Shown: piece by piece, positions 2,471 through 37,813 of the stretch
Layout: every line of letters begins with the position of its first letter
Numbering within the stretch: position 1 is the stretch's first letter
Assembly (NCBI GenBank): GCA_947480015.1
Contig: CANKBS010000031.1
Coordinates: 1-40,780, forward strand
DNA length: 40,780 nt
Source of the DNA: Sphingobacteriaceae bacterium
Lineage (GTDB): Bacteria > Bacteroidota > Bacteroidia > B-17B0 > Aurantibacillaceae
Direction: 5' to 3'
Notes under the pieces: generated by a model
Seen by the model: only the letters and a program-made list of their open reading frames with translations
Told to the model about the DNA's origin: nothing
Databases searched by the model: none
Translations under genes and position numbers: made by a program

Positions 2471-2857
2471 AGCCGGCCTCAGAAATTCTCGCTTTGAAAT
2501 CTCGAAGGCTTTGAAGGCGTGGCAAAAAAAGCCGGTCCTAGGCGCACTGCAGGTTTGCGCATGCTTTTTTTGCCTGCTTGTGTGTGAGCGATTTGCTACT
2601 CTTCCGCTACCCCCAATAATTTGAAAGCGGAAGAGTATGATCAAATCGCTGGCTCAAAGCCTTCGCAGATTTCTGCGAGAATTTCTGAAGCCTTGATTTT
2701 TTGGTTCTTTTTGCACTTGTGCTGAGCCTGTCGAAGCATCAAGGCAAATTACGTCCATTAATAAACGAATTTCTAAAATCCCATATGATTCAGCGATGCT
2801 AAAAGCCTAATACTGGTAAAACCAACAACCCTGATTTTTCGCTACCGCTCAAAACCC
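2471..2857. repeat. Large structured repeat, copy A
   Basis: A unit of about 390 bp, repeated directly with its start exactly 1000 bp further on (3471). The first about 220 bp fold into a long branched hairpin. The outer arms are GAAATTCTCGC / GCGAGAATTTC (2481-2491 and 2675-2685). Inside are GAAGGCTTTGA / TCAAAGCCTTC, GGCAAAAAAAGC / GCTTTTTTTGCC, and GCGATTTGCTACTCTTCCGC with GCGGAAGAGTATGATCAAAT. A less structured tail follows, containing GGTTCTTTTTG and CCATATGATTCAG, almost identical in both copies. A short CTGAGCCTGTCGAAG repeat interrupts the tail at about 2720. No ORF here has coding character. Confidence 0.8.
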
Positions 2858-18199: not shown

Positions 18200-18520
18200 C
18201 CACTTTTGAACCACCCTTCGACTCCGCTCAGGGCAAGCATAAGGGCATATAAGGAAAATTTTTTTGAACTATTTAAACCAACTTGAACCTTTGAACCATA
18301 TGAACCATTTTAAACTTTGAACGTCACCCTGAGCAAGTTTATGCTGAGCAAGTTTATGCTGAGCTTGCCGAAGCATCGAAGCATCGAAGGGTGAACCCCT
18401 TTGAATGTCATCCTGAGCCTGCCGAAGGATGAACCAGTTGAACTTTTCCCAAAGTCATCCTGAGCCTGTCGAAGGATGAACCTTAAACGTCACCCTGAGC
18501 CTGCCGAAGGGTTGAACTAC
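18200..18520. repeat. Cluster of CTGAGCCTGTCGAAG repeats
   Basis: Four or five copies of a CATCCTGAGCCTG(T/C)CGAAGGATG or CACCCTGAGC..GAAGGGTG unit lie in about 300 bp (around 18328, 18410, 18454, 18490), plus a related CCCTTCGACTCCGCTCAGGG at 18216. One unit carries an internal duplication (GAGCAAGTTTATGCT twice). Each unit is a short imperfect hairpin. Two degenerate copies also occur near 2715 and 2880. The 18190-18719 spacer contains no gene besides these and the palindrome at 18543. Confidence 0.75.
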
Positions 18521-18719: not shown

Positions 18720-19970
18720 ATGGCATTACAGGTAAACGTAAACGATATCTTATCCCAGCTCTACCAACATCGCGGTGTGGTGGAGTTTTTATTTGCGAAC
18801 CGCGAGAACATAACGGTTAACGAATTGTTGTCGCGCGAAGACATCTCGCAGGAACAATTCCAGAAACTGAAATCCCTCGATCTGGTTTACGAATACGAAA
18901 GCATTGTGAGTCTGAACGACGCCGTGGTGGCCATGTTCGAAGACTTTATGGAAATCGGTGAAGTAACCCCGGGTTTCATCAACGACTACATCAACGAACT
19001 TAACCGTCACATTCGTTTTTACCAGGAAGCCCGCGAAATGCGGTTCTTACGAAGTATCAAAAAATACCTCAAACGCATCAATGCCACGCTTACCCGCGAG
19101 ATCATCAAGTTGCAAAAAAATGTGGATGATACGTACAAAAACGAAAGTAATTACCGCATCAAACTTCAGAAACTCGAAGACTACCGCGAGAAAAGGGATA
19201 CCATCATTGAGTTCATCAAAAAAACGTCTGATGTGGTGGAAGAAACCCGTAATCTTTTCAGCTTAACCAACGACTCCGAACTCTTCGGTATCGTGCAGGC
19301 TTTAAAGGTGAGCCTCATTGAGAACCTCGATTACCTGATCGAAATTCAAACCGACATTACCGATTACATTAATAAAATTCAGTTCCAACTCGACGTTTAT
19401 AAAAAAGCGCAACGTCTCAAAGAAATTAAAGATCACGGCACACTCCGCTTTAAATCAAATTTCCACGAAACGGTGAGTAATGTGAATACCCTGCGTTATA
19501 ACGGCATTAAAACACCAAAAACAAAAATTTCAATCGACTTTTTGTATACCGACGACGGGCATATTTTGTGTAAACGTATTTCTGAAAAATACAAACTCAC
19601 CCGCCTCATGGTGCGTGGCCTGGCCGATAGAATGGCAGGAAACTTCAAGGACAAAGGTCTGGAACAACAAATTAAACTCGATACCGAAAAACTGGTAGAG
19701 CGCTTTATTGTACAAAACAAAGCCAATTTGTTTGAATACTTAATGGATTACAAATTCCCCAAAGCCATTGGTACCGTTACCTTTGAAGACCGCTTAAGTT
19801 TGTTTGTGGAAATCGCCATGGAATATCAGAATACCCTCGATTTTAAATACCGTTTGCAGTATTACGATTATCAAGATAATGAAAAAAAGAACAAACGTTT
19901 AGGCTATACACTCATTTTACCAAAAGCAGAAACAGAAAAAAAGAAAAAAAGTAAAACCGAAGCCAACTAA
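18720..19970 (+). CDS. MksF/JetA-like kleisin subunit of an SMC complex
   Basis: A 416-residue soluble protein. Residues 1-70 look like a winged helix (DILSQLYQHRGVVEFLFANR, ITVNELLSREDISQEQFQKL). About 80-250 is a long helical middle (RFLRSIKKYLKRINATLTRE, NLDYLIEIQTDITDYINKIQ). Residues 265-400 form a second globular, probably winged-helix domain (FPKAIGTVTFEDRLSLFVEI). The wHTH-helices-wHTH layout and its place before a KITE-like gene and an SMC-like ATPase match MksF/JetA kleisins, which bridge the SMC heads. The assignment rests on architecture and gene order more than on sequence identity. The tail is Lys-rich (KKKKSKTEAN). It is followed after 31 bp by the MksE-like gene. Confidence 0.75.
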   Translation: MALQVNVNDILSQLYQHRGVVEFLFANRENITVNELLSREDISQEQFQKLKSLDLVYEYESIVSLNDAVVAMFEDFMEIGEVTPGFINDYINELNRHIRFYQEAREMRFLRSIKKYLKRINATLTREIIKLQKNVDDTYKNESNYRIKLQKLEDYREKRDTIIEFIKKTSDVVEETRNLFSLTNDSELFGIVQALKVSLIENLDYLIEIQTDITDYINKIQFQLDVYKKAQRLKEIKDHGTLRFKSNFHETVSNVNTLRYNGIKTPKTKISIDFLYTDDGHILCKRISEKYKLTRLMVRGLADRMAGNFKDKGLEQQIKLDTEKLVERFIVQNKANLFEYLMDYKFPKAIGTVTFEDRLSLFVEIAMEYQNTLDFKYRLQYYDYQDNEKKNKRLGYTLILPKAETEKKKKSKTEAN

Positions 19971-20001
19971 TAACTAAAAACAAAAAAACTAAACACGCAA
20001 C

Positions 20002-20607
20002 ATGTTAGCAGAAGACTATAACTTACCAAAACAAACACACGAAATATTTTCGGTGATGGCACGTGGCAATTTTATTTCCAGCAATGGAACCCGTGATGGC
20101 ATGAACCGTTTATACGACATCATTAACAATCCCGAAAACTTCGATCGTTTACAAGCCTACTTCAACGTCATTCGTTACAACATTGAGCGTGGCAATAATT
20201 TCTTCTATTTCTCAAAATTGCACGAAGCCAACTCTGAACTTGAAAAAAAATTAGAACGTTTTGAACGTTATATCGACATCATCGACCTTTTTGCCAGTAT
20301 GGATAATAAAATCACCATTGGCAGCCGATTTCGTCCGGGTGAAATTGCAGAAGAGTGTAATGCCAACGTGCGTTTGAAACAAAAATTACAAAAAATTCCT
20401 CTTTACCGTTCAGAGACCTTACACAACAAAGTACGCGAGATCTGTGATTTAATGAGCCGCGATTCGTATTTAGAACTCGAAGACGAAAAAACTGAATCGT
20501 ACAAAGTGCTAGATTCGTATACCTACTTACTGGATGTGATTAATTCTGTAGCTATTTATGAAGACAGCAGTAATACTGATAATGCACAAGGATTGATCTA
20601 TAACTAA
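20002..20607 (+). CDS. MksE/JetB-like (KITE) subunit of an SMC complex
   Basis: A 201-residue protein of the usual MksE/JetB size. The N-terminus has IFSVMARGNFISSNGTRDGM and NRLYDIINNPENFDRLQAYF, then IRYNIERGNNFFYFSKL, resembling the 'L..G.fi...s....yr.LYd.i....e.l..yF..ig..le.g.gyfYf' pattern of MksE proteins. LERFERYIDIIDLF and a C-terminal winged-helix part ending LEDEKTESYKVLDSYTYLLD follow. In known complexes this subunit dimerises and binds the kleisin. The stop is 135 bp from the SMC-like gene, and that gap contains a perfect 18-bp palindrome. Confidence 0.75.
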   Translation: MLAEDYNLPKQTHEIFSVMARGNFISSNGTRDGMNRLYDIINNPENFDRLQAYFNVIRYNIERGNNFFYFSKLHEANSELEKKLERFERYIDIIDLFASMDNKITIGSRFRPGEIAEECNANVRLKQKLQKIPLYRSETLHNKVREICDLMSRDSYLELEDEKTESYKVLDSYTYLLDVINSVAIYEDSSNTDNAQGLIYN

Positions 20608-20613
20608 CCCTTC

Positions 20614-20631
20614 GTCCGATAGCTATCGGAC
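20614..20631. repeat. 18-bp palindrome GTCCGATAGCTATCGGAC
   Basis: A perfect palindrome within CCCTTCGTCCGATAGCTATC..CTTCGCTCAGGG, whose outer CCCT/AGGG also pairs. The core GTCCGATAGCTATCGGA recurs at 8213-8229, so it is a dispersed repeat. Here it sits between the second and third genes of the SMC operon, where a hairpin in the transcript could stabilise or attenuate it. Confidence 0.7.
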
Positions 20632-20742
20632 TTCGCTCAGGGTCCGCCGGGTAGATAAAAATTAGTTTAGATTGTTACAACAAGGAACAGAAAGAAGACT
20701 AAGCTTAAAACAGAATTAAAGAAGAAACAATTAAGATAGAAA

Positions 20743-23700
20743 ATGGAAAACTGCAGAATATTAAATAGAATTGTAGAGATAAATATTTCAAACGTAAAGT
20801 ACGCCGATATTGAATTGAGTGGGAATACCTGTTTTGTGGGAACGAATAACTTCGGTAAAACATCCCTGCAACGTGCCATTTTATTCTTTTACAGCGCCAA
20901 CAGCCGTGGATTGGGCATCTCAGCTTCTCAAAAACCTTTTGAGGAACACTACTTCCGTTATGAGAACTCCTATATCATTTATGAAATTGCAACCGAAGAC
21001 AAACCTTTCTTTGTGATCGTTTACCGTCACAATAAAATTGTGTTCCGTTTTGTGGATGCGGCTTTTGATCCGGATTTATTTTTCACGGCCAACGATGATG
21101 CCATGAAGATAAAGGATATTATTGCGAACATGGAGAAGCGTGGTATTTATATCTCCAACCAGATCGATACCTTTGAAAGATACCGGAACATTATTTTCGG
21201 AACAGAAACCGACAAACAATTATCGAAATTCCACTTATTAAAAGGAAACGAAAAATATCAAAACATTCCAAAATCCATTACCAATGTATTCTTGTCATCA
21301 AAGAGCAGTGTGGATTCGCGCTTTATTAAAGATTTTATTGCTAACTCCTTAACTACCGAAAACAGCAGCATTAAACTTGAGCAGGTAGAACGTCAGTTAC
21401 GCCAGTTCAACGAAAAGTATTCCGATATTGAGACCTATCTCAAAAAAGAATCACAACAACTCATTGAGTTGATCGACAAAAAATACGATCAGGTACACAT
21501 GCTCAAAGGCGCGCAAATGGAAATGGCCGATAAACTCGGTAGCAGTTTGCGTTTCGCCGAATCACAAAATGAAGCCATTCGTGAAGCCGCTAAGAAAAAA
21601 GAAGAAGAACTCGATTTACTGTCGGCCGAACACGAAACGATTAAAGAACAACTAGAAGGTAAATCAAACGACATTCGCGAAGAAATTGGTTATTACGACC
21701 GTACCATTCGTGAGGCCAACAAAAAATTAAAAGAATACAAAGAAAAAAACATTGATGCCGCCGTTGAAAAAAACAACGAGCGCGAAAAACTACAGGTTGA
21801 ACTCAACATCGCCCGTCGTGAATACGAAAGTTTAACATCCAACGTGGCAAGCATCGAGTTAAAATACTCTTCTCTTATCGAGCAATTGCGCAATGATAAA
21901 AGTGCTTACGTCAACAAAATAAATTCACGTACCTCCGAAATCTTTAATCACTACAACGAATTACAACTCCTTCAGAAAAATGAATTTAATAAACGGGATG
22001 CCGAGTTAAAACAAAAACGTGAAGAAGGTATTGGTGAAGTAAATGCAGAGGTTACTTCCAAACAAATTGAATTCAACGAATTAAAAAGTGAAGAAAAAGT
22101 AATCCGTACAACTCGTTTTTACGAACAAGAAATAAAAAGTCTCGAAAACGAATTGGCCGAATTACGCGCCGTAAATTACAAGAACAAAAGTGAGCGCGCC
22201 ATTAAACAAAACATGGTGGTTACCATCCAACGTGAGTGGGAAGCTTTGGAAACAAAATTAAAAGCCTCACTCAACAACCGTGTTAACCAAACCAATAACG
22301 AGATCATCAAAATTAAAAATGAGATCAAGGATATTGAAGGGAAATTAAATGTACAACACGATGCCTTTTACGGCTTCCTCGAAAAAAATGTAAAAAACTG
22401 GCACCAGACCATTGGTAAAGTGGTGAACGAAAAATTACTGTTCCGCACCGATATCTCCCCTGAATTAAAACAGGAAACGGCCGACAGTCTTTATGGCATA
22501 AGTCTGAACCTCGAACCGGTTGAGATCGTTTCAAAATCCATTGAAGAATATCAGTTTGAGAAAAACGAACGCATGGCTCAGATCCGTGATCTGGAAGAAG
22601 CACTCAACCTGTTTCAAACCGCCAACAACGAAGAAAAAATGCTGGCTGCCGATAAATTCGGAAAACAACTGGGTGAGTTAAAAGAAGATGTAAAAGTGCT
22701 TTCTTACTCGCTTGAATTAGCCGAAAAACGCGAACAAAAATTAGGGCATGAACTCGAAGACTGGAGCAGTCGTGCCGGCAAAGAAGTGGAACAATCACTC
22801 AGCGGCAACCGTCAGCGTTTAAATATCATTGAAGAAGAGTTAGCCATTCTTACTAAAAAGAAGAACCTCCTCATCAATGATTTCACCACACAATTCGATA
22901 AATTAAAAGCCTACAACGAAGAACGTCTGGCTGAATTAAAAGAACGTCAGGAATCAGAAGTTTCGGAACTGGAAGTAGAAAAGAAAAACCAGGTTAAGGA
23001 ATTCGAAAACAAAGAAGAAGAATTAGGCAAAGAAAAAGACAGCAATTTTAAAAGCAAAGGGGTTGATGCCAAACAATTAAAGAACGTTGAAACCCGCATG
23101 AAAGAATTGCAGGAGGCTTTGAAGGAGATTGAACAGTATGCACAGATCATCAGCGATTACCTCAAAGATAAACGCGAAACCTTTGATCGTTTACCTGATC
23201 TCATTCAAAAGAAAGATGAGTTCGTGAAAACCAATAACGACTTGCATGCTCAGTTAGAAGAAACCACCCGCAAGTTTAACATGAAACGCATGGAACTGAA
23301 TAAACAGAAACGTGCCTTTGATGAAGAACTCATTGATTTTAATAACGGGATCAATTTCTACAGTAACAACTTCCGCGAAACGCCAGTATACACCAAGTAT
23401 TCCGACATTATCGAACGCGCCGAATCAAAACGTACCAATTACCACATCATGGATTTGTGTACACAATTATTAAAGAATGATTCACACTTTAATGAAGAAT
23501 ACGGTGCATTTCAACGTTATGTAAACGAGTTTGCCGGTAAATTCAGAATAGAGAATCACTTTAATTTTGTAATCCGTAACGATGCCTCACAAGGCGAATA
23601 CGAACGTTTTGCACAAAACTTACGTTCCTTCATCAACGAAAATAAAATTGAACTATCCATCGCTGAAACGGCCACACAAATTGGTTTGGTAACCGATAGT

Positions 23701-24426
23701 ATTGCTACGAAAGTAAAAGAGTTAAGCGGACAAAAAGATAAGATCCAACACATCATTGGTTTAATTGCTGAAGATTTTAAGAAAGCAGAATTTGAAGAAA
23801 GTAAATTAATTGAGTTTATTAAGATCCGTCTGGAAGAATCAGATAACAAAGTTTATCGTTTATTAAAACGCATTCAGGAATTCCGTGAAGAGAACGGCTT
23901 GGTGTATAACGAAGGTTTATTTAATACCGATTTTGCAACCGGTCAAAAACGTGAGATCAGCACCCGCGCTGTTAAATTACTCGAACAATTACGCACCGCT
24001 ATTAAAGAACAAGAGCAGGAAGAAATTCGTTTACAGGATTTGTTTGAATTAAAATTCAACATTAAAGAAGGTATGAACGAAACCGGCTGGACACATAAAA
24101 TCGACAGCATTGGTAGTACCGGAACCGATATCCTTGTAAAAGCGATCATTTATATCACCCTCTTACACGTGTTTATTAAAGAGTCGTCGCACCGTAGCAG
24201 TAAAGACTTTAAAGTACATTGTATTATTGACGAGGTAGGACAAATTTCGGCGCATTACCTGCGTGAGTTATTACGTTTTGCCAAAAACAGAAATATTATG
24301 ATGATCAATGGTCTCCCTAATAAATCAGGTTTGGAAAGTCACTACAAATACACTTACCAGTTCAGAAGAGAAGAGAACAACAATGTTCGCATCTTCCCAA
24401 GCATTGTAACGGAAGTAGAGGCTTAA
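20743..24426 (+). CDS. SMC-like ATPase, MksB/JetC-type (DUF3584-like)
   Basis: A 1227-residue protein with an SMC layout. The N-terminal ATPase half has Walker A GTNNFGKTS at 33-41, in which a Phe stands where many SMC proteins have Ser or Gly. Long coiled coils (about 245-535 and 610-900, Glu/Lys-rich heptads) flank a non-coiled hinge-like segment at about 535-605 (FYGFLEKNVKNWHQTIGKVV). The C-terminal head has an atypical signature SIGSTGTDILVKAI (1122-1135) in place of LSGGQ, Walker B VHCIIDE ending at D1163/E1164, and a late SGLESHYKYTYQF segment. The N-terminus (INISNVKYADIELSGNTCFV) and size recall the DUF3584 ATPase family and, by operon context, MksB/JetC. Role inferred: DNA loop extrusion or plasmid restriction together with the two upstream proteins. 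ATG 20743 precedes the first beta strand directly. Confidence 0.82.
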   Translation: MENCRILNRIVEINISNVKYADIELSGNTCFVGTNNFGKTSLQRAILFFYSANSRGLGISASQKPFEEHYFRYENSYIIYEIATEDKPFFVIVYRHNKIVFRFVDAAFDPDLFFTANDDAMKIKDIIANMEKRGIYISNQIDTFERYRNIIFGTETDKQLSKFHLLKGNEKYQNIPKSITNVFLSSKSSVDSRFIKDFIANSLTTENSSIKLEQVERQLRQFNEKYSDIETYLKKESQQLIELIDKKYDQVHMLKGAQMEMADKLGSSLRFAESQNEAIREAAKKKEEELDLLSAEHETIKEQLEGKSNDIREEIGYYDRTIREANKKLKEYKEKNIDAAVEKNNEREKLQVELNIARREYESLTSNVASIELKYSSLIEQLRNDKSAYVNKINSRTSEIFNHYNELQLLQKNEFNKRDAELKQKREEGIGEVNAEVTSKQIEFNELKSEEKVIRTTRFYEQEIKSLENELAELRAVNYKNKSERAIKQNMVVTIQREWEALETKLKASLNNRVNQTNNEIIKIKNEIKDIEGKLNVQHDAFYGFLEKNVKNWHQTIGKVVNEKLLFRTDISPELKQETADSLYGISLNLEPVEIVSKSIEEYQFEKNERMAQIRDLEEALNLFQTANNEEKMLAADKFGKQLGELKEDVKVLSYSLELAEKREQKLGHELEDWSSRAGKEVEQSLSGNRQRLNIIEEELAILTKKKNLLINDFTTQFDKLKAYNEERLAELKERQESEVSELEVEKKNQVKEFENKEEELGKEKDSNFKSKGVDAKQLKNVETRMKELQEALKEIEQYAQIISDYLKDKRETFDRLPDLIQKKDEFVKTNNDLHAQLEETTRKFNMKRMELNKQKRAFDEELIDFNNGINFYSNNFRETPVYTKYSDIIERAESKRTNYHIMDLCTQLLKNDSHFNEEYGAFQRYVNEFAGKFRIENHFNFVIRNDASQGEYERFAQNLRSFINENKIELSIAETATQIGLVTDSIATKVKELSGQKDKIQHIIGLIAEDFKKAEFEESKLIEFIKIRLEESDNKVYRLLKRIQEFREENGLVYNEGLFNTDFATGQKREISTRAVKLLEQLRTAIKEQEQEEIRLQDLFELKFNIKEGMNETGWTHKIDSIGSTGTDILVKAIIYITLLHVFIKESSHRSSKDFKVHCIIDEVGQISAHYLRELLRFAKNRNIMMINGLPNKSGLESHYKYTYQFRREENNNVRIFPSIVTEVEA

Positions 24427-24450: not shown

Positions 24451-24487
24451 AACCCGGTTCTGAACATTCAGGATCGGGTTTTTTAAT
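24451..24487. terminator. Bidirectional intrinsic terminator after the SMC operon
   Basis: AACCCGGTTCTGA and TCAGGATCGGGTT form a stem (two G-U pairs) with loop ACAT, followed on the plus strand by TTTTTTAATTTT. It ends the SMC operon, and its minus-strand reading (T-rich arm AAATGTAAAT) also faces the end of the convergent ORF6N gene at 24489. Confidence 0.8.
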
Positions 24488-24488
24488 T

Positions 24489-25084
24489 TTATTTTCTAAG
24501 GCTTTTATTGGTCTTTCGTTTAGCAGTCGGCTTCTTCACTACTCTTTTCTTTTTTGGAATCTTAAAGCCGATTTTTTTGCGTGGTTTCGACGACTTGTCT
24601 ATAAACTCATCAAAGTATCTGAAAACGATTTCAATGTTCTTATCATGATTTTCAATTTTCTTTTTAATCTTTTCAATTTCCAATTTCAATTCTGTGTGAG
24701 TAACAAGCACCTCTCTTAATTTCACGAAAATTTCGATAATCCTAATACTTACCAAAACCGCCTGATCGCTCTTTAGTACATTGGCCAGCATTAACACGCC
24801 ATGTTCGGTAAAAGCATATGGCAAAGTACCGCCCAGAGCGGCTCGCGAAGGTATCGCATTTTGCGATACCATAACATCCACCTCATTTTCGCTCAGTTGG
24901 AACATAAAATGCTCAGGAAACTTTGAATAATTCCTTTTTACCTGTTCACGAAGACGGATGGCCTTAACCCCGTAAAGTGCCGCCAAATCACGATCTACCA
25001 TGATTTTCTGACCACGCAAAACATAAATCTTGTCATGACCACTTCCTGCGGAACCAGGCTTAAATTAGACTTTCTCTTGCTCAT
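24489..25084 (-). pseudogene. ORF6N-domain DNA-binding protein, frameshifted near its start
   Basis: From 25019 leftward the frame encodes an ORF6N domain: RGQKIMVDRDLAALYGVKAI, LREQVKRNYSKFPEHFMFQL, VMVSQNAIPSR and LPYAFTEHGVLMLANVLKSD. The C-terminus is a Lys-rich tail. That frame has no ATG before an upstream stop, only TTG at 25019. In another frame an ATG at 25084 gives MSKRKSNLSLVPQEVVM, the usual N-terminus of this family. Adding one base at about 25033 (ATGACAAG to ATGAACAAG) joins both into ..EVVMNKIYVLRGQK.., so a 1-base deletion is likely. It could also be a sequencing error, or the short TTG-started form could still be made. Similar domains occur in phage antirepressor-like proteins. 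Confidence 0.7.
24850..24870. promoter_or_regulatory. 21-bp palindrome inside the ORF6N gene
   Basis: GGTATCGCATTTTGCGATACC is a 9-bp perfect inverted repeat around TTT. On the coding strand it spells VSQNAIP codons, a conserved part of the ORF6N family. The identical 21 bases occur again upstream of the gene at 25100-25120. Confidence 0.55.
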
Positions 25085-34124: not shown

Positions 34125-36878
34125 TTATCGTTTAATTGGTTTAGTTATTTTAAACTCGGTGCGACGATTAATTTTGTGTTCTTCTTCCGAACACTCAACC
34201 CCATCGTTACATTTGTTTAATAAGCGGGTCTCGCCATAACCCACCGCTTTTAAACGGGTACGTGCAACCCCTTTGTTTACAAGATAATCAACCGCTGTTT
34301 GGGCTCTTCTGCGAGATAATCCCATGTTAAATTCAGAGCTTGACTGAGCATCGGTATGTGAACTAATTTCCATAACCAATTTTGGATACTCAAGCATTGC
34401 GTCGGCGGCTTTATTTAACACAACCTCAGCTTCCGGACTAATTTTATAATCGCCATAAGCATAATAAATATTTTCGACAATGGTAATGGATAATTCTGAC
34501 TCCTCTTCCGGCTCTTCTTTCTCTTTGGTAACCACCTTTTCTTTCACATCTTTGGCTATTTTCTCGGCTTTCAATTTCTTCGCAGCAATATCTTTTTTCA
34601 ACTCCTCCACTTTGAAAGACGGATCTTCCACAACGAATTCACCCATCGAAAATTTATCCACCTCAAGTATTTTAAACACAAACTTCCCTCCGGTTAAATC
34701 AACCACTTTATAAATCCGCCCTTTACTATCAGCAATGAATAAACGGTTTACGCCGGCTAAACTAGGATCGCTTTCATCTGTTTCGAAAATATAATTTTTA
34801 TCGGCATCTAAATTTTTAAAATTAAAGCGTCCACCTGCCATGGTCGTCCATTCTTGAGCATTACTGCCATCCTCATCTTTCACTCTAATTTTTGCATTCA
34901 CAATTGGTTTTTTATCCTGATCGTAAACAAAACCATATATACCCATAACCAAATTCACATCCTCAGCATCCATTTCATCGAGTAAATTTTTATCGGCATT
35001 AAGTACTTTAAAGTAAAATTTATCCTTCCCTTTGTAAATGGTACGAACATCTTTGCCTAATTTATTGGTGAGCGTAATTTTAGTTCCCTCAGCTAATTTC
35101 ACATCGCCTTCTTCAATTTCAACTAAATAGTTTTGATCAGATGGAATGTTACGAAAAGCAAAGGCTCCGTATTCGTTAGTAGTAGCTTCTTCCACCACAT
35201 CACCAAAATCATTTACCAGTTTTAATTTTGCATTTACCAAAGGTTTTGAGCCATCGCCGGCTTTTAAAGTACCTGCAAATATCAGGTCGTCTTCGGTAAA
35301 CAAGTCAGGTAAACCATTGGGGTCGATTGGCAAATTTCTAAAAGCGAATTTATTATCCTTGTATTTACCAGTTACACGATGAATGACAGAATCTTTATCC
35401 GCTAAATAATAACGGGCTTTACCAACTAATTCAGGGTCTTCCTCACTAATAACCGCCATGTATTTTTTATCGCCATCTAAGTTCTTGAAGGCAAAGAAAC
35501 CTTTTGCATCGGTATAGGTACTATCCATTACATTGCCCTGCTCATCCAATAACATCACCTTTTTACCTTTGGCAAAATCTCTTAAATTTTCGGTTAACAA
35601 AATATTTCCCGAAACAACCAAGGATTTACTTTTAAATTCGTAAAAATAAATATCATCGTTACCCCTACCGCCCGCACGGTTGGAAGAAAAATAACCCATG
35701 GAGTCATTTAAAAAAGTAATACCGAAATCATCGGTACTGCTATTCAAATTTAAGCCCTCATTACGTTGTAGGATCCACTTTGAACTCACCATTTTTGCGG
35801 AATAGATATCTAACCCACCATAACCCGGTAAACCGTTAGAGGAGAAAAACAAAGTGCCGTCTTTACGAATAGTAGGAAACATTTCATCTCCGCTGGTATT
35901 AATATCAGGACCTAAATTAACAGGGGGGCCCCAGCTACCACCTTCTTGTTTACTCATGTAAATATCTTTTCCACCATATCCTCCCGGCATATCGCTCGTA
36001 AAATAAAGTATTTGGCCATCGGCACTAATACTTGGATGCCCTATCGAATAATCGGCATTATTTAATGAAATAGGTTTAATGTTTTTCCAGTTTCTGTTTT
36101 GACCGGTAGAAGTATAAATTTGTGAACGGTTCACATAACCTTTCTTATCAACATAATTAACACGTGTAAAATAAAGGGTTTTTCCGTCTTCTGTTAAAGA
36201 ACCAGGACCATCATGGTAATCGGTATTTATTTTTTTAGAAAATGTTTTTGATTTTTTTAAATCGGTACCATTCAAATCAGAAACGTACATGTTTAAAAAG
36301 GGTTCACCATTGTAATCGTTCACTTCATAATTAATAAAATCAAACGATTCTCTTTCGGCAATAAACATTACCCGTTTATCGGTTACATAAGGTGAAAATT
36401 CAGCTTTCTCGGTATTAATCGCGTCCATATTTTTAATACTGTATTCAATGGGACGCGACAAGTAATATTTTATTTCTTTACAAAATTTTAAAGCATTAGC
36501 CACCGCCTGATCACCGGGATTTAATTTTAAATAATTGGCATACTGTTCAGCAGCTTCTTCATATTTATAATTAGCTTTTAAAATCTGAGCATAATTAATA
36601 TAAGCTTCCTTAGGCGAATCTGGATTTAATTCTAGTAACTTCTGGTAAGCATCCTCAGCTCTGATATAATTATTTATGAGCTTATAGCTATTGCCCAATT
36701 TAAGCAACGCTTCCTGTTTTTTATCGGCACTTTTTGATCGGATTTCTTTTTTATAAAAAGGTATCGCTTTAATATATTCGCCGTTCTCAAAAAACTTATC
36801 TCCTTTACTCATTTGCCCTAGGGAGGCGAGACTGAGTGAAAGAATAAAAGCTAGGCTATAAATGTGTTTATGAATCAT
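34125..36878 (-). CDS. PorE-like OmpA-family protein (TPR, beta-propeller, CRD, OmpA)
   Basis: A 917-residue protein with a signal peptide (LAFILSLSLASLGQ) and four modules. Residues 25-130 are TPR-like (GEYIKAIPFYKKEIR, YIRAEDAYQKLLELNPDSP). About 160-420 is a PD40/WD40-like propeller (GHPSISADGQILYFTSDMPG, ISGDEMFPTIRKDGTLFFSS). About 420-770 holds repeated carboxypeptidase-regulatory-like units (DAKGFFAFKNLDGDKKYM, NEYGAFAFRNIPSDQNYL, GGRFNFKNLDADKNYIFE). Residues 795-917 are OmpA with LVMEISSHTDAQSSSEFNMG and LSRRRAQTAVDYLVNKGVAR. This layout equals PorE-type T9SS accessory proteins that link outer membrane and peptidoglycan. It follows the PorP/SprF-like gene after 8 bp. Confidence 0.88.
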   Translation of the reverse strand: MIHKHIYSLAFILSLSLASLGQMSKGDKFFENGEYIKAIPFYKKEIRSKSADKKQEALLKLGNSYKLINNYIRAEDAYQKLLELNPDSPKEAYINYAQILKANYKYEEAAEQYANYLKLNPGDQAVANALKFCKEIKYYLSRPIEYSIKNMDAINTEKAEFSPYVTDKRVMFIAERESFDFINYEVNDYNGEPFLNMYVSDLNGTDLKKSKTFSKKINTDYHDGPGSLTEDGKTLYFTRVNYVDKKGYVNRSQIYTSTGQNRNWKNIKPISLNNADYSIGHPSISADGQILYFTSDMPGGYGGKDIYMSKQEGGSWGPPVNLGPDINTSGDEMFPTIRKDGTLFFSSNGLPGYGGLDIYSAKMVSSKWILQRNEGLNLNSSTDDFGITFLNDSMGYFSSNRAGGRGNDDIYFYEFKSKSLVVSGNILLTENLRDFAKGKKVMLLDEQGNVMDSTYTDAKGFFAFKNLDGDKKYMAVISEEDPELVGKARYYLADKDSVIHRVTGKYKDNKFAFRNLPIDPNGLPDLFTEDDLIFAGTLKAGDGSKPLVNAKLKLVNDFGDVVEEATTNEYGAFAFRNIPSDQNYLVEIEEGDVKLAEGTKITLTNKLGKDVRTIYKGKDKFYFKVLNADKNLLDEMDAEDVNLVMGIYGFVYDQDKKPIVNAKIRVKDEDGSNAQEWTTMAGGRFNFKNLDADKNYIFETDESDPSLAGVNRLFIADSKGRIYKVVDLTGGKFVFKILEVDKFSMGEFVVEDPSFKVEELKKDIAAKKLKAEKIAKDVKEKVVTKEKEEPEEESELSITIVENIYYAYGDYKISPEAEVVLNKAADAMLEYPKLVMEISSHTDAQSSSEFNMGLSRRRAQTAVDYLVNKGVARTRLKAVGYGETRLLNKCNDGVECSEEEHKINRRTEFKITKPIKR

Positions 36879-36886
36879 AGTATAAC

Positions 36887-37813
36887 TTATAAAAATCTTG
36901 GATTAATTATTTTTGATTTAGATCCTGCAATGTCAAAACCAATCATGCCTTCAAAGCTTGGCCCCAAGCGTGTGGCGTTTTTTAAACCGGTATCATAAGA
37001 TAAGCCTACACGAAATTGGTTGGTAATGTAATAAGAGATGAGTCCACCCGGACCATAACCATAGCGGTAAAAAGCACCAAACCACATTTTTTTATACAAA
37101 AAGAAATTGGCATTCACATCCATACTCATGCTATTGCCAACTGATTTTACAAGAATGGTTGGAGCAAATACCAGGTCCTTATCCAATACAAACGAATAAC
37201 CCGCTGTTAGAAACATATGCGTGCCTAAACGATAAGAAAACTTTCCAAGCAAAGCATTATCTGCCGTGTAAGAGTATACCGTAGGTGTATTAATATGGGT
37301 AGCGCTAAAACCAATAAAAAATGATTTTGCTTTTAGGTACAAACCACCATTAATATCGAGCGTTCCTTTATTTATGGAAGATAAAAGTTGAGTAGGCACT
37401 TCCGCTTCCTTAAAACCAATTTTATCGAAATTAAACTGATAACGATTATATCCGGCGTTTAAGCCAAAAGATAAATGCATTTTAGGGCTTAGTTTTAAAA
37501 TGTAGGCAAAGTTACCGTAAACACTGGTCACGTTGCGCGGCCCCATCATATCATTAACTAAGGTTAAACCCAAACCAATATTTTTATTTAAGACAGGACC
37601 ATGCACACTGGCACAGGTGGTTTTAGGTGCGCCATCAAAACCTACCCATTGTTGGCGGTTAGAGGCCACAGCCGAAATACCATCACGCGAACCAGCATAG
37701 GCAGGATTAATGACCATTTGATTAAACTGGTAAAGGTTATATTGCGGATCCTGTTGTGCTTCCATTCCATTGGAAAGAAAAACAGCGCTTAATATCATTA
37801 TGATTTTTTTCAT
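36887..37813 (-). CDS. PorP/SprF-like type IX secretion membrane protein
   Basis: A 308-residue outer-membrane protein with a signal peptide (IIMILSAVFLSNGMEAQ). The start of the mature part, DPQYNLYQFNQMVINPAYAG, and SRDGISAVASNRQQWVGFDG are the signature of the PorP/SprF family. Beta strands follow (LGLTLVNDMMGPRNVTSVYG, FSYRLGTHMFLTAGYSFVLD). Members anchor type B (CHU_C) cargo after T9SS secretion, and many genomes carry several, each beside its cargo. Here the neighbour (6 bp upstream) is a CHU_C protein, which fits that pairing. Confidence 0.93.
   Translation of the reverse strand: MKKIIMILSAVFLSNGMEAQQDPQYNLYQFNQMVINPAYAGSRDGISAVASNRQQWVGFDGAPKTTCASVHGPVLNKNIGLGLTLVNDMMGPRNVTSVYGNFAYILKLSPKMHLSFGLNAGYNRYQFNFDKIGFKEAEVPTQLLSSINKGTLDINGGLYLKAKSFFIGFSATHINTPTVYSYTADNALLGKFSYRLGTHMFLTAGYSFVLDKDLVFAPTILVKSVGNSMSMDVNANFFLYKKMWFGAFYRYGYGPGGLISYYITNQFRVGLSYDTGLKNATRLGPSFEGMIGFDIAGSKSKIINPRFL

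Follow-up and report, generated by a model that had tools for sequence, protein, structure and literature searches.

We analysed a window of 40,780 nucleotides (the whole of positions 1 to 40,780 of contig CANKBS010000031.1, assembly GCA_947480015.1) from a Sphingobacteriaceae bacterium that GTDB places in the Aurantibacillaceae, and concentrated on its operon mksF-mksE-mksB, for a kleisin, a KITE subunit and an ATPase of the structural maintenance of chromosomes (SMC) type. The sequence of this nuclease-free operon and its distribution suggest that it probably encodes the main, and the only recognisable, chromosome-organising SMC complex of the genus, a condensin of the MksBEF type (here MksFEB). 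As judged by profile searches, nearly all sampled genomes of the genus carry MksFEB, which is conserved and is the only condensin recognisable in them; chromosome folding may have passed to it in this genus. A genus without recognisable Smc or ScpA in which MksBEF is near-universal offers a way to test whether MksBEF by itself can sustain a chromosome; a partial literature search found no paper describing a Bacteroidota lineage whose only condensin is MksBEF, although the founding MksBEF paper may already say so.

To describe the distribution of condensins, we sampled 40 genomes of the genus and 296 genomes of the class Bacteroidia, including 14 of this family. The MksB head profile matched in 38 of the 40 genus genomes, the two misses being the assemblies G050 (91% complete, 430 contigs) and G055 (73% complete, 320 contigs). 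Smc (TIGR02168) exceeded its cut-off in none of the 40 genomes, the best score being 63.5 bits against a cut-off of 567; the search was noisy, with weak coiled-coil matches in all 40. ScpA was found in 0/40 genomes and ScpB in one (G020), as a strong, isolated match at a contig end (L108, G020:C7:130984-131325) in a genome without a ScpA match. The initial annotation had proposed looking for a second, Smc-ScpAB set; none was recognised in this genome, where the profile search returned no SMC_hinge (PF06470) candidates and no ScpA or ScpB matches. At the family level, MksE was present in 14/14 genomes and SMC_hinge in 0/14, and in the class sample SMC_hinge was matched in 71 genomes (46.6-79.9 bits, cut-off 22.5), MksE in 94 and JetD_C in 14; the MksB head profile matched in 60, including one marginal score.

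The initial annotation had described three consecutive open reading frames (ORFs) of 416, 201 and 1227 amino acids (aa), and these were recovered exactly, all on the forward strand: the kleisin-like, mksF-like ORF1 (18720..19970), called from the ORF list, an AlphaFold model and Foldseek; mksE (ORF2, 20002..20607); and mksB (ORF3, 20743..24426), with gaps of 31 bases between mksF and mksE and 135 bases between mksE and mksB. ORF2 matched the MksE family PF21980 (100.9 bits, E = 1.2e-28, cut-off 27) and ORF3 matched PF12128, DUF3584 (224.8 bits, E = 2e-66, cut-off 31). ORF1 matched no Pfam family over cut-off (best TMF_TATA_bd, 19.9 bits against 29.1). Its model (mean predicted local distance difference test score, pLDDT, 66; predicted template modelling score, pTM, 0.40) begins with a winged-helix-like part, followed by a long helical bundle, a low-confidence, disordered-looking linker and a C-terminal helix with strands. 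The first eight Foldseek rows for this model were all JetABC, MukBEF or MukF chains, so that the structural comparison bears out the kleisin assignment, with only two rows below E = 0.001 (JetABCD, 1.6e-4, and JetABC, 3.4e-4). MukBEF and MukEF chains also topped the VIA-align list (Z 13.0-13.7), which adds little beyond Foldseek because unrelated helical bundles follow there at Z 12-13. At the sequence level, the kleisin profile had no match in the PDB, and the MksE profile hit a designed protein only, with no stretch passing by itself.

The ATPase carries the full set of nucleotide-binding motifs, namely Walker A GTNNFGKT (residues 33-40, 20839..20862, forward strand), the ABC signature SIGSTGTD (residues 1122-1129, 24106..24129, forward strand) and the Walker B acidic pair D1163-E1164 (24229..24234, forward strand). 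Residues G38 and K39 of Walker A, S1125, G1127 and T1128 of the signature and both residues of the acidic pair are invariant in all 26 aligned heads. The signature had initially been taken for an oddity of this protein, a view that did not survive the alignment, since SxGT is common to all 26 ATPases; judged from these sequences, SxGT is firmly a rule of the whole ATPase branch rather than a local peculiarity. Nor does the N-terminus set the protein apart from JetC by being closer to DUF3584, as had been proposed, because PADLOC itself describes JetC as 'DUF3584 domain; MukB-like'. The predicted secondary structure, of low confidence, runs from head through coiled coil, a short central non-coiled stretch and a second coiled coil to head; the 1200-residue model of MksB (mean pLDDT 62, pTM 0.28, heads mostly below 50) was kept out of the fold search. 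A phmmer search of MksB against the PDB gave no match, and the N-head profile matched mainly ABC transporters and P-loop proteins. Identity of the ATPase as Smc was ruled out, its TIGR02168 score being 8.5 bits where the cut-off is 567.

Because of the MksE family match, the DUF3584 ATPase and the kleisin-like Foldseek rows, the operon is, on sequence and model, of the MksFEB type, with genes for a kleisin, a KITE protein and an SMC ATPase. By the features compared, it belongs to MksBEF: a DUF3584-type SMC ATPase in which Walker A, the signature and Walker B are all intact, an MksE-family KITE subunit, and a kleisin of MukF/JetA fold encoded upstream in the order F-E-B. It is not a Wadjet member, because the operon encodes no nuclease subunit, JetD being found in 0/60 related loci and nowhere in the window. 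In this reading, two MksB ATPases would be joined at the hinge, MksF would bridge the pair and carry the MksE subunits, and ATP binding and hydrolysis at the SxGTD heads would power the capture of chromosomal DNA and the formation of loops, with MksFEB acting in place of Smc-ScpAB. Formation of the complex, loop extrusion and a role in chromosome segregation would be expected of MksFEB.

The operon is well conserved among close relatives. We collected 74 such loci (L021-L094), partly from the same species as the 40 genus genomes, so that the 60 loci used for the downstream survey, each with a complete mksB and 1200 bases or more beyond it, and the 40 genomes are not independent counts. Full-length MksB of 56 close relatives is 71-92% identical to the present protein, the initially described order of kleisin, KITE and SMC-like ATPase genes recurs, beyond chance, in 58 of the 58 related loci that hold all three, and median dN/dS was 0.034-0.060, for the pairs with measurable dS only (4/55, 12/60 and 15/56). 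Profiles of JetD (from JetD_C loci) and of the DUF7281 nuclease had no match in L001-L094, in the 60 downstream-surveyed loci or in the window, in agreement with the earlier reading that no JetD stands beside the operon. The first gene after mksB lies on the same strand in 38/60 loci and belongs to 50 families in the 60 loci, the largest represented in three loci, which rules out a conserved downstream effector. The gene upstream of mksF is more stable, with a glycosyltransferase cluster preceding it in 29 loci. The initial annotation had named a JetD homologue beside this operon in close relatives, lost only here, as an observation that would speak against it: none was found next to the 71-92% identical MksB, whereas a weak form of it does occur, in that distant sisters, with heads 35-41% identical, carry a JetD-like DUF7281 gene.

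These sisters, which we designate A2, comprise nine loci of the class sample (L187-L193, L200 and L202); the 35-41% head identity is from seven of the nine. They have the same subunits, order and SxGTD signature as the present operon, and profiles of their kleisin and KITE proteins matched those of the present form (A) with probabilities of 100 and 99.9. In eight of the nine loci, the exception being L191, mksB is followed by a homologous gene of 284-302 aa, which abuts or overlaps mksB in six loci, is separated from it by 889 bases in L189 and runs off the end of the contig in L200. This gene matched PF23947, DUF7281, at 5.6e-13 in L187 and, below cut-off, at 8.7e-5 in L190, and PADLOC JetD1 at 1.4e-5 and 2e-5; by our own reading of the motifs, it contains EN and GDxD motifs, as Toprim enzymes typically do. 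The best plasmid-borne relatives of the present MksB (25-29% identity over 98-99%) come from Phocaeicola massiliensis and Persicobacter. Four of the six plasmid loci read carry the nuclease and two do not, and both Persicobacter strains have one locus of each sort. A fourth, DUF7281 gene directly follows mksB in six class and four plasmid loci (L288-L290 and L292), and is missing from the present operon. Both forms occur as separate loci in G162, of the same family (L167 and L192, with mksB of the A2 copy split into two ORFs), and in G020, of the same genus (L183 and L202); therefore, the nuclease-free form in this genome did not arise by recent decay. Wadjet-like operons with the short DUF7281 nuclease (L187:9911-10765, L190:339-1247, L288:7145-8023 and L290:7196-8053) may be under-counted, because the JetD_C profile misses this nuclease and PADLOC sees it weakly.

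As the initial annotation had anticipated, the ATPase falls into a distinct branch. In profile-profile comparisons, the group formed by the present operon and its A2 sisters matched the short MksB type with gene order B-F-E (B) at 99.6% and 97.9% for the N- and C-terminal head halves, and the loci of family f2 at 99.8 and 96.6%, but JetC of JetD_C-bearing Wadjet loci at only 89.7% over 27 residues (N) and 36.4% (C). A further group, type C, matched JetC at 95.1 and 95.5%. Against the PDB, the combined A and B C-head profile had MukB as its best match (2e-7), with no JetC row; the heads of the group with A2 alone, compared with one MukB sequence, gave 25.9% and 4.9%, which is not significant. 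In a MukB-rooted tree, A plus A2 received an ultrafast bootstrap of 100, A 87, A2 97 and B 92, with the deeper order unsettled. FastTree grouped nuclease-free A weakly with the nuclease-free Persicobacter copies (0.76) and supported the nuclease clade at 0.93, with the nuclease-free L191 inside it.

Descent from, or a common origin with, nuclease-bearing Wadjet-like complexes would be consistent with these relationships. One scenario, tentative and in our estimate somewhat short of even, is domestication, whereby the JetD-type nuclease was lost from a Wadjet-like JetABCD/MksBEFG ancestor, which then came to serve the family as its only chromosomal condensin, replacing Smc-ScpAB as MukBEF is reported to have done in enterobacteria. 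The B-F-E branch may have undergone the same change independently in other families of Bacteroidia, and such a parallel, if true, would help to explain why many Bacteroidota live without Smc. The nuclease-bearing sisters make it testable whether defence SMC complexes become housekeeping condensins by nuclease loss.

The proposal that MksFEB would be doing the work of Smc-ScpAB in the genus is supported by the description of Pseudomonas aeruginosa MksBEF, probably JetABCD minus JetD, as contributing to chromosome organisation, and of MukBEF as having replaced Smc-ScpAB in enterobacteria (PMC10586767). In the class sample, after removal of one marginal head match (G254, 21.4 bits) from the 60, leaving 59, and of seven A2-only genomes (G070, G156, G157, G165, G202, G240 and G319), 52 genomes that carry form A or B remained, and these overlapped with SMC_hinge in a single genome, G213 (Fisher test, P = 3.9e-6), in which mksB and the kleisin gene flank a nuclease-like gene (L160, 32.3 bits). 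Among the A2-only genomes, G319 was assigned by its MksE score, its locus being unread for a nuclease, and the locus of G156 (L191) is without one.

Several observations weigh against so central a role. The negative association between Smc and MksB was not significant once collapsed to families (P = 0.43; 72 families, an upper bound), and the absence of Smc is profile-based, with at most 13 candidates scored per genome. Moreover, 225/296 Bacteroidia genomes had no SMC_hinge match and 144/296 had none of SMC_hinge, MksE and this MksB head; therefore, loss of Smc is common and not explained by MksFEB alone, and Bacteroidia evidently can live without any condensin visible to these profiles. We infer vertical inheritance of MksFEB from presence and identity. 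The nuclease-bearing sisters look like defence systems, and PADLOC scored the ATPase itself higher as the defence ATPases AriA (3.6e-7) and LmuB (5.7e-5) than as JetC1 (0.012).

It is unlikely, in our assessment, that MksFEB is an accessory MksBEF and that an Smc-type complex is also present but has diverged too far for the profiles used. Such a complex would fit a Hi-C report on two Bacteroidetes species in which no known condensin had been detected, one of which, a Bacteroides, showed arm alignment, and whose authors called for unidentified SMC complexes (PMC10197239). However, the Smc, ScpA and SMC_hinge profiles were negative and ScpB was found in only 1/40 genomes, and yet the same approach detected the hinge in 71/296 Bacteroidia.

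We consider it decidedly improbable that the operon encodes a Wadjet-like complex directed against plasmids or phages, with its nuclease gene elsewhere in the genome. A classical JetD elsewhere is ruled out by PF09983 (JetD_C), which had 0 matches in this genome; the profile likewise failed to pick up the DUF7281 type in the A2 class genomes and this genome was not searched with DUF7281, which leaves room for a nuclease of that type, and the sister complexes do carry a DUF7281/JetD-like gene beside mksB, some of them on plasmids. Nevertheless, MksB is present in 38/40 genus genomes, unlike JetD_C (5/40), no nuclease profile matched in the genus loci examined, and G162 and G020 keep nuclease-free and nuclease-bearing loci apart. 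In the five genus genomes with JetD_C, the match belongs to separate Wadjet loci and this MksB is also present; therefore, the two systems are not alternatives. We give a similarly low probability to a defence complex without a nuclease that would silence or trap extrachromosomal DNA instead of cutting it, as suggested by the architecture shared with defence SMC complexes, the AriA and LmuB matches and the described restriction of viral DNA in human cells by Smc5/6, an SMC complex with KITE subunits (PMC10586767), but opposed by the presence of MksB in 38/40 genomes, the low dN/dS and the lack of a conserved neighbour after mksB. Defence genes are usually patchy in distribution. Finally, a prophage or phage origin of the operon was ruled out, with no match among 50,697 phage records; in PHROGs, the kleisin and KITE proteins had no match and MksB a marginal one (0.0099).

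Set beside known systems, the putative chromosomal condensin MksFEB is close, by published description, to MksBEF of P. aeruginosa, which has the same kleisin-KITE-SMC operon in the order F-E-B, no nuclease and a subunit of the Pfam MksE family (PMC10586767). P. aeruginosa, however, is reported also to have SMC (PMC7485682), whereas the genus studied here has no recognisable Smc. Wadjet JetABCD operons with JetD_C (L206-L220 and similar) share the kleisin-KITE-SMC plan, and JetABCD and JetABC are the best Foldseek matches of the kleisin model, but in this phylum their JetC has SGG or SSGE signatures in place of SxGTD, a JetD of 380-419 aa follows, and their distribution is patchy (5/40 genomes in the genus, 14/296 in the class). 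MukBEF of Escherichia coli (L287) has the same F-E-B order, and MukF is among the top fold matches of the kleisin model, although MukB has 1486 aa against 1227 aa for MksB here. With Smc-ScpAB, for which this genome has no SMC_hinge, ScpA or ScpB match, only the general SMC-kleisin-KITE plan is shared.

Other MksBEF-like forms were encountered in Bacteroidia. A second nuclease-free form, with a short MksB (~890 aa) and the order B-F-E, occurs in families f11, f20, f26 and f40 (L149, L151, L154, L155, L164, L165, L168, L174, L175, L180, L205, L224 and L225); a kleisin-sized gene adjoins mksE in 13/13 loci checked, and there is no conserved neighbour. A JetD-like gene lies between mksB and the kleisin gene in two loci of B-F-E type (L186:4892-5689 and L160:8503-9294) out of 24 B-F-E and three E-B (family f9) loci. 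Another F-E-B form (L150, L153, L156, L157, L162, L163, L172, L176-L178 and L204) has a kleisin of ~440 aa, an MksB of ~1060-1200 aa and a signature that is mostly GSxGQ or GSxSQ, and in some of its loci mksB is followed by a gene of 300-317 aa, weakly JetD_C-like in L177. In family f2, genomes with a hinge-bearing Smc also have an MksE-MksB pair (L194-L196) that has no recognisable kleisin gene directly before mksE.

In the window itself, the operon is closed by a terminator-like hairpin (24451..24480, forward strand; 13-pair stem with 6 G-C pairs and a T-rich tail), although the region as a whole shows no excess of terminator-like matches (6 against a shuffle mean of 7.5). The next gene, on the reverse strand (24489-25019), is an unrelated ORF6N-domain, anti-repressor-like gene (PADLOC candidate family PDC-S05, 1.7e-55), so that the picture initially drawn of this end of the operon, with a terminator and an unrelated gene beyond it, was confirmed. 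Dispersed short repeats resembling CCTGAGCNTGYCGAAG lie before mksF (18358-18509) and near the start of the window (2721-2736 and 2883-2898), with 6 matches at two mismatches or fewer against 0.06 expected. A phage-type integrase gene (530-1747) adjoins a tRNA-Glu gene (1863-1935), an arrangement usual at the edge of integrated elements. Farther downstream, at 34125-37813, an OmpA-domain protein adjoins PorP/SprF of the type IX secretion system.

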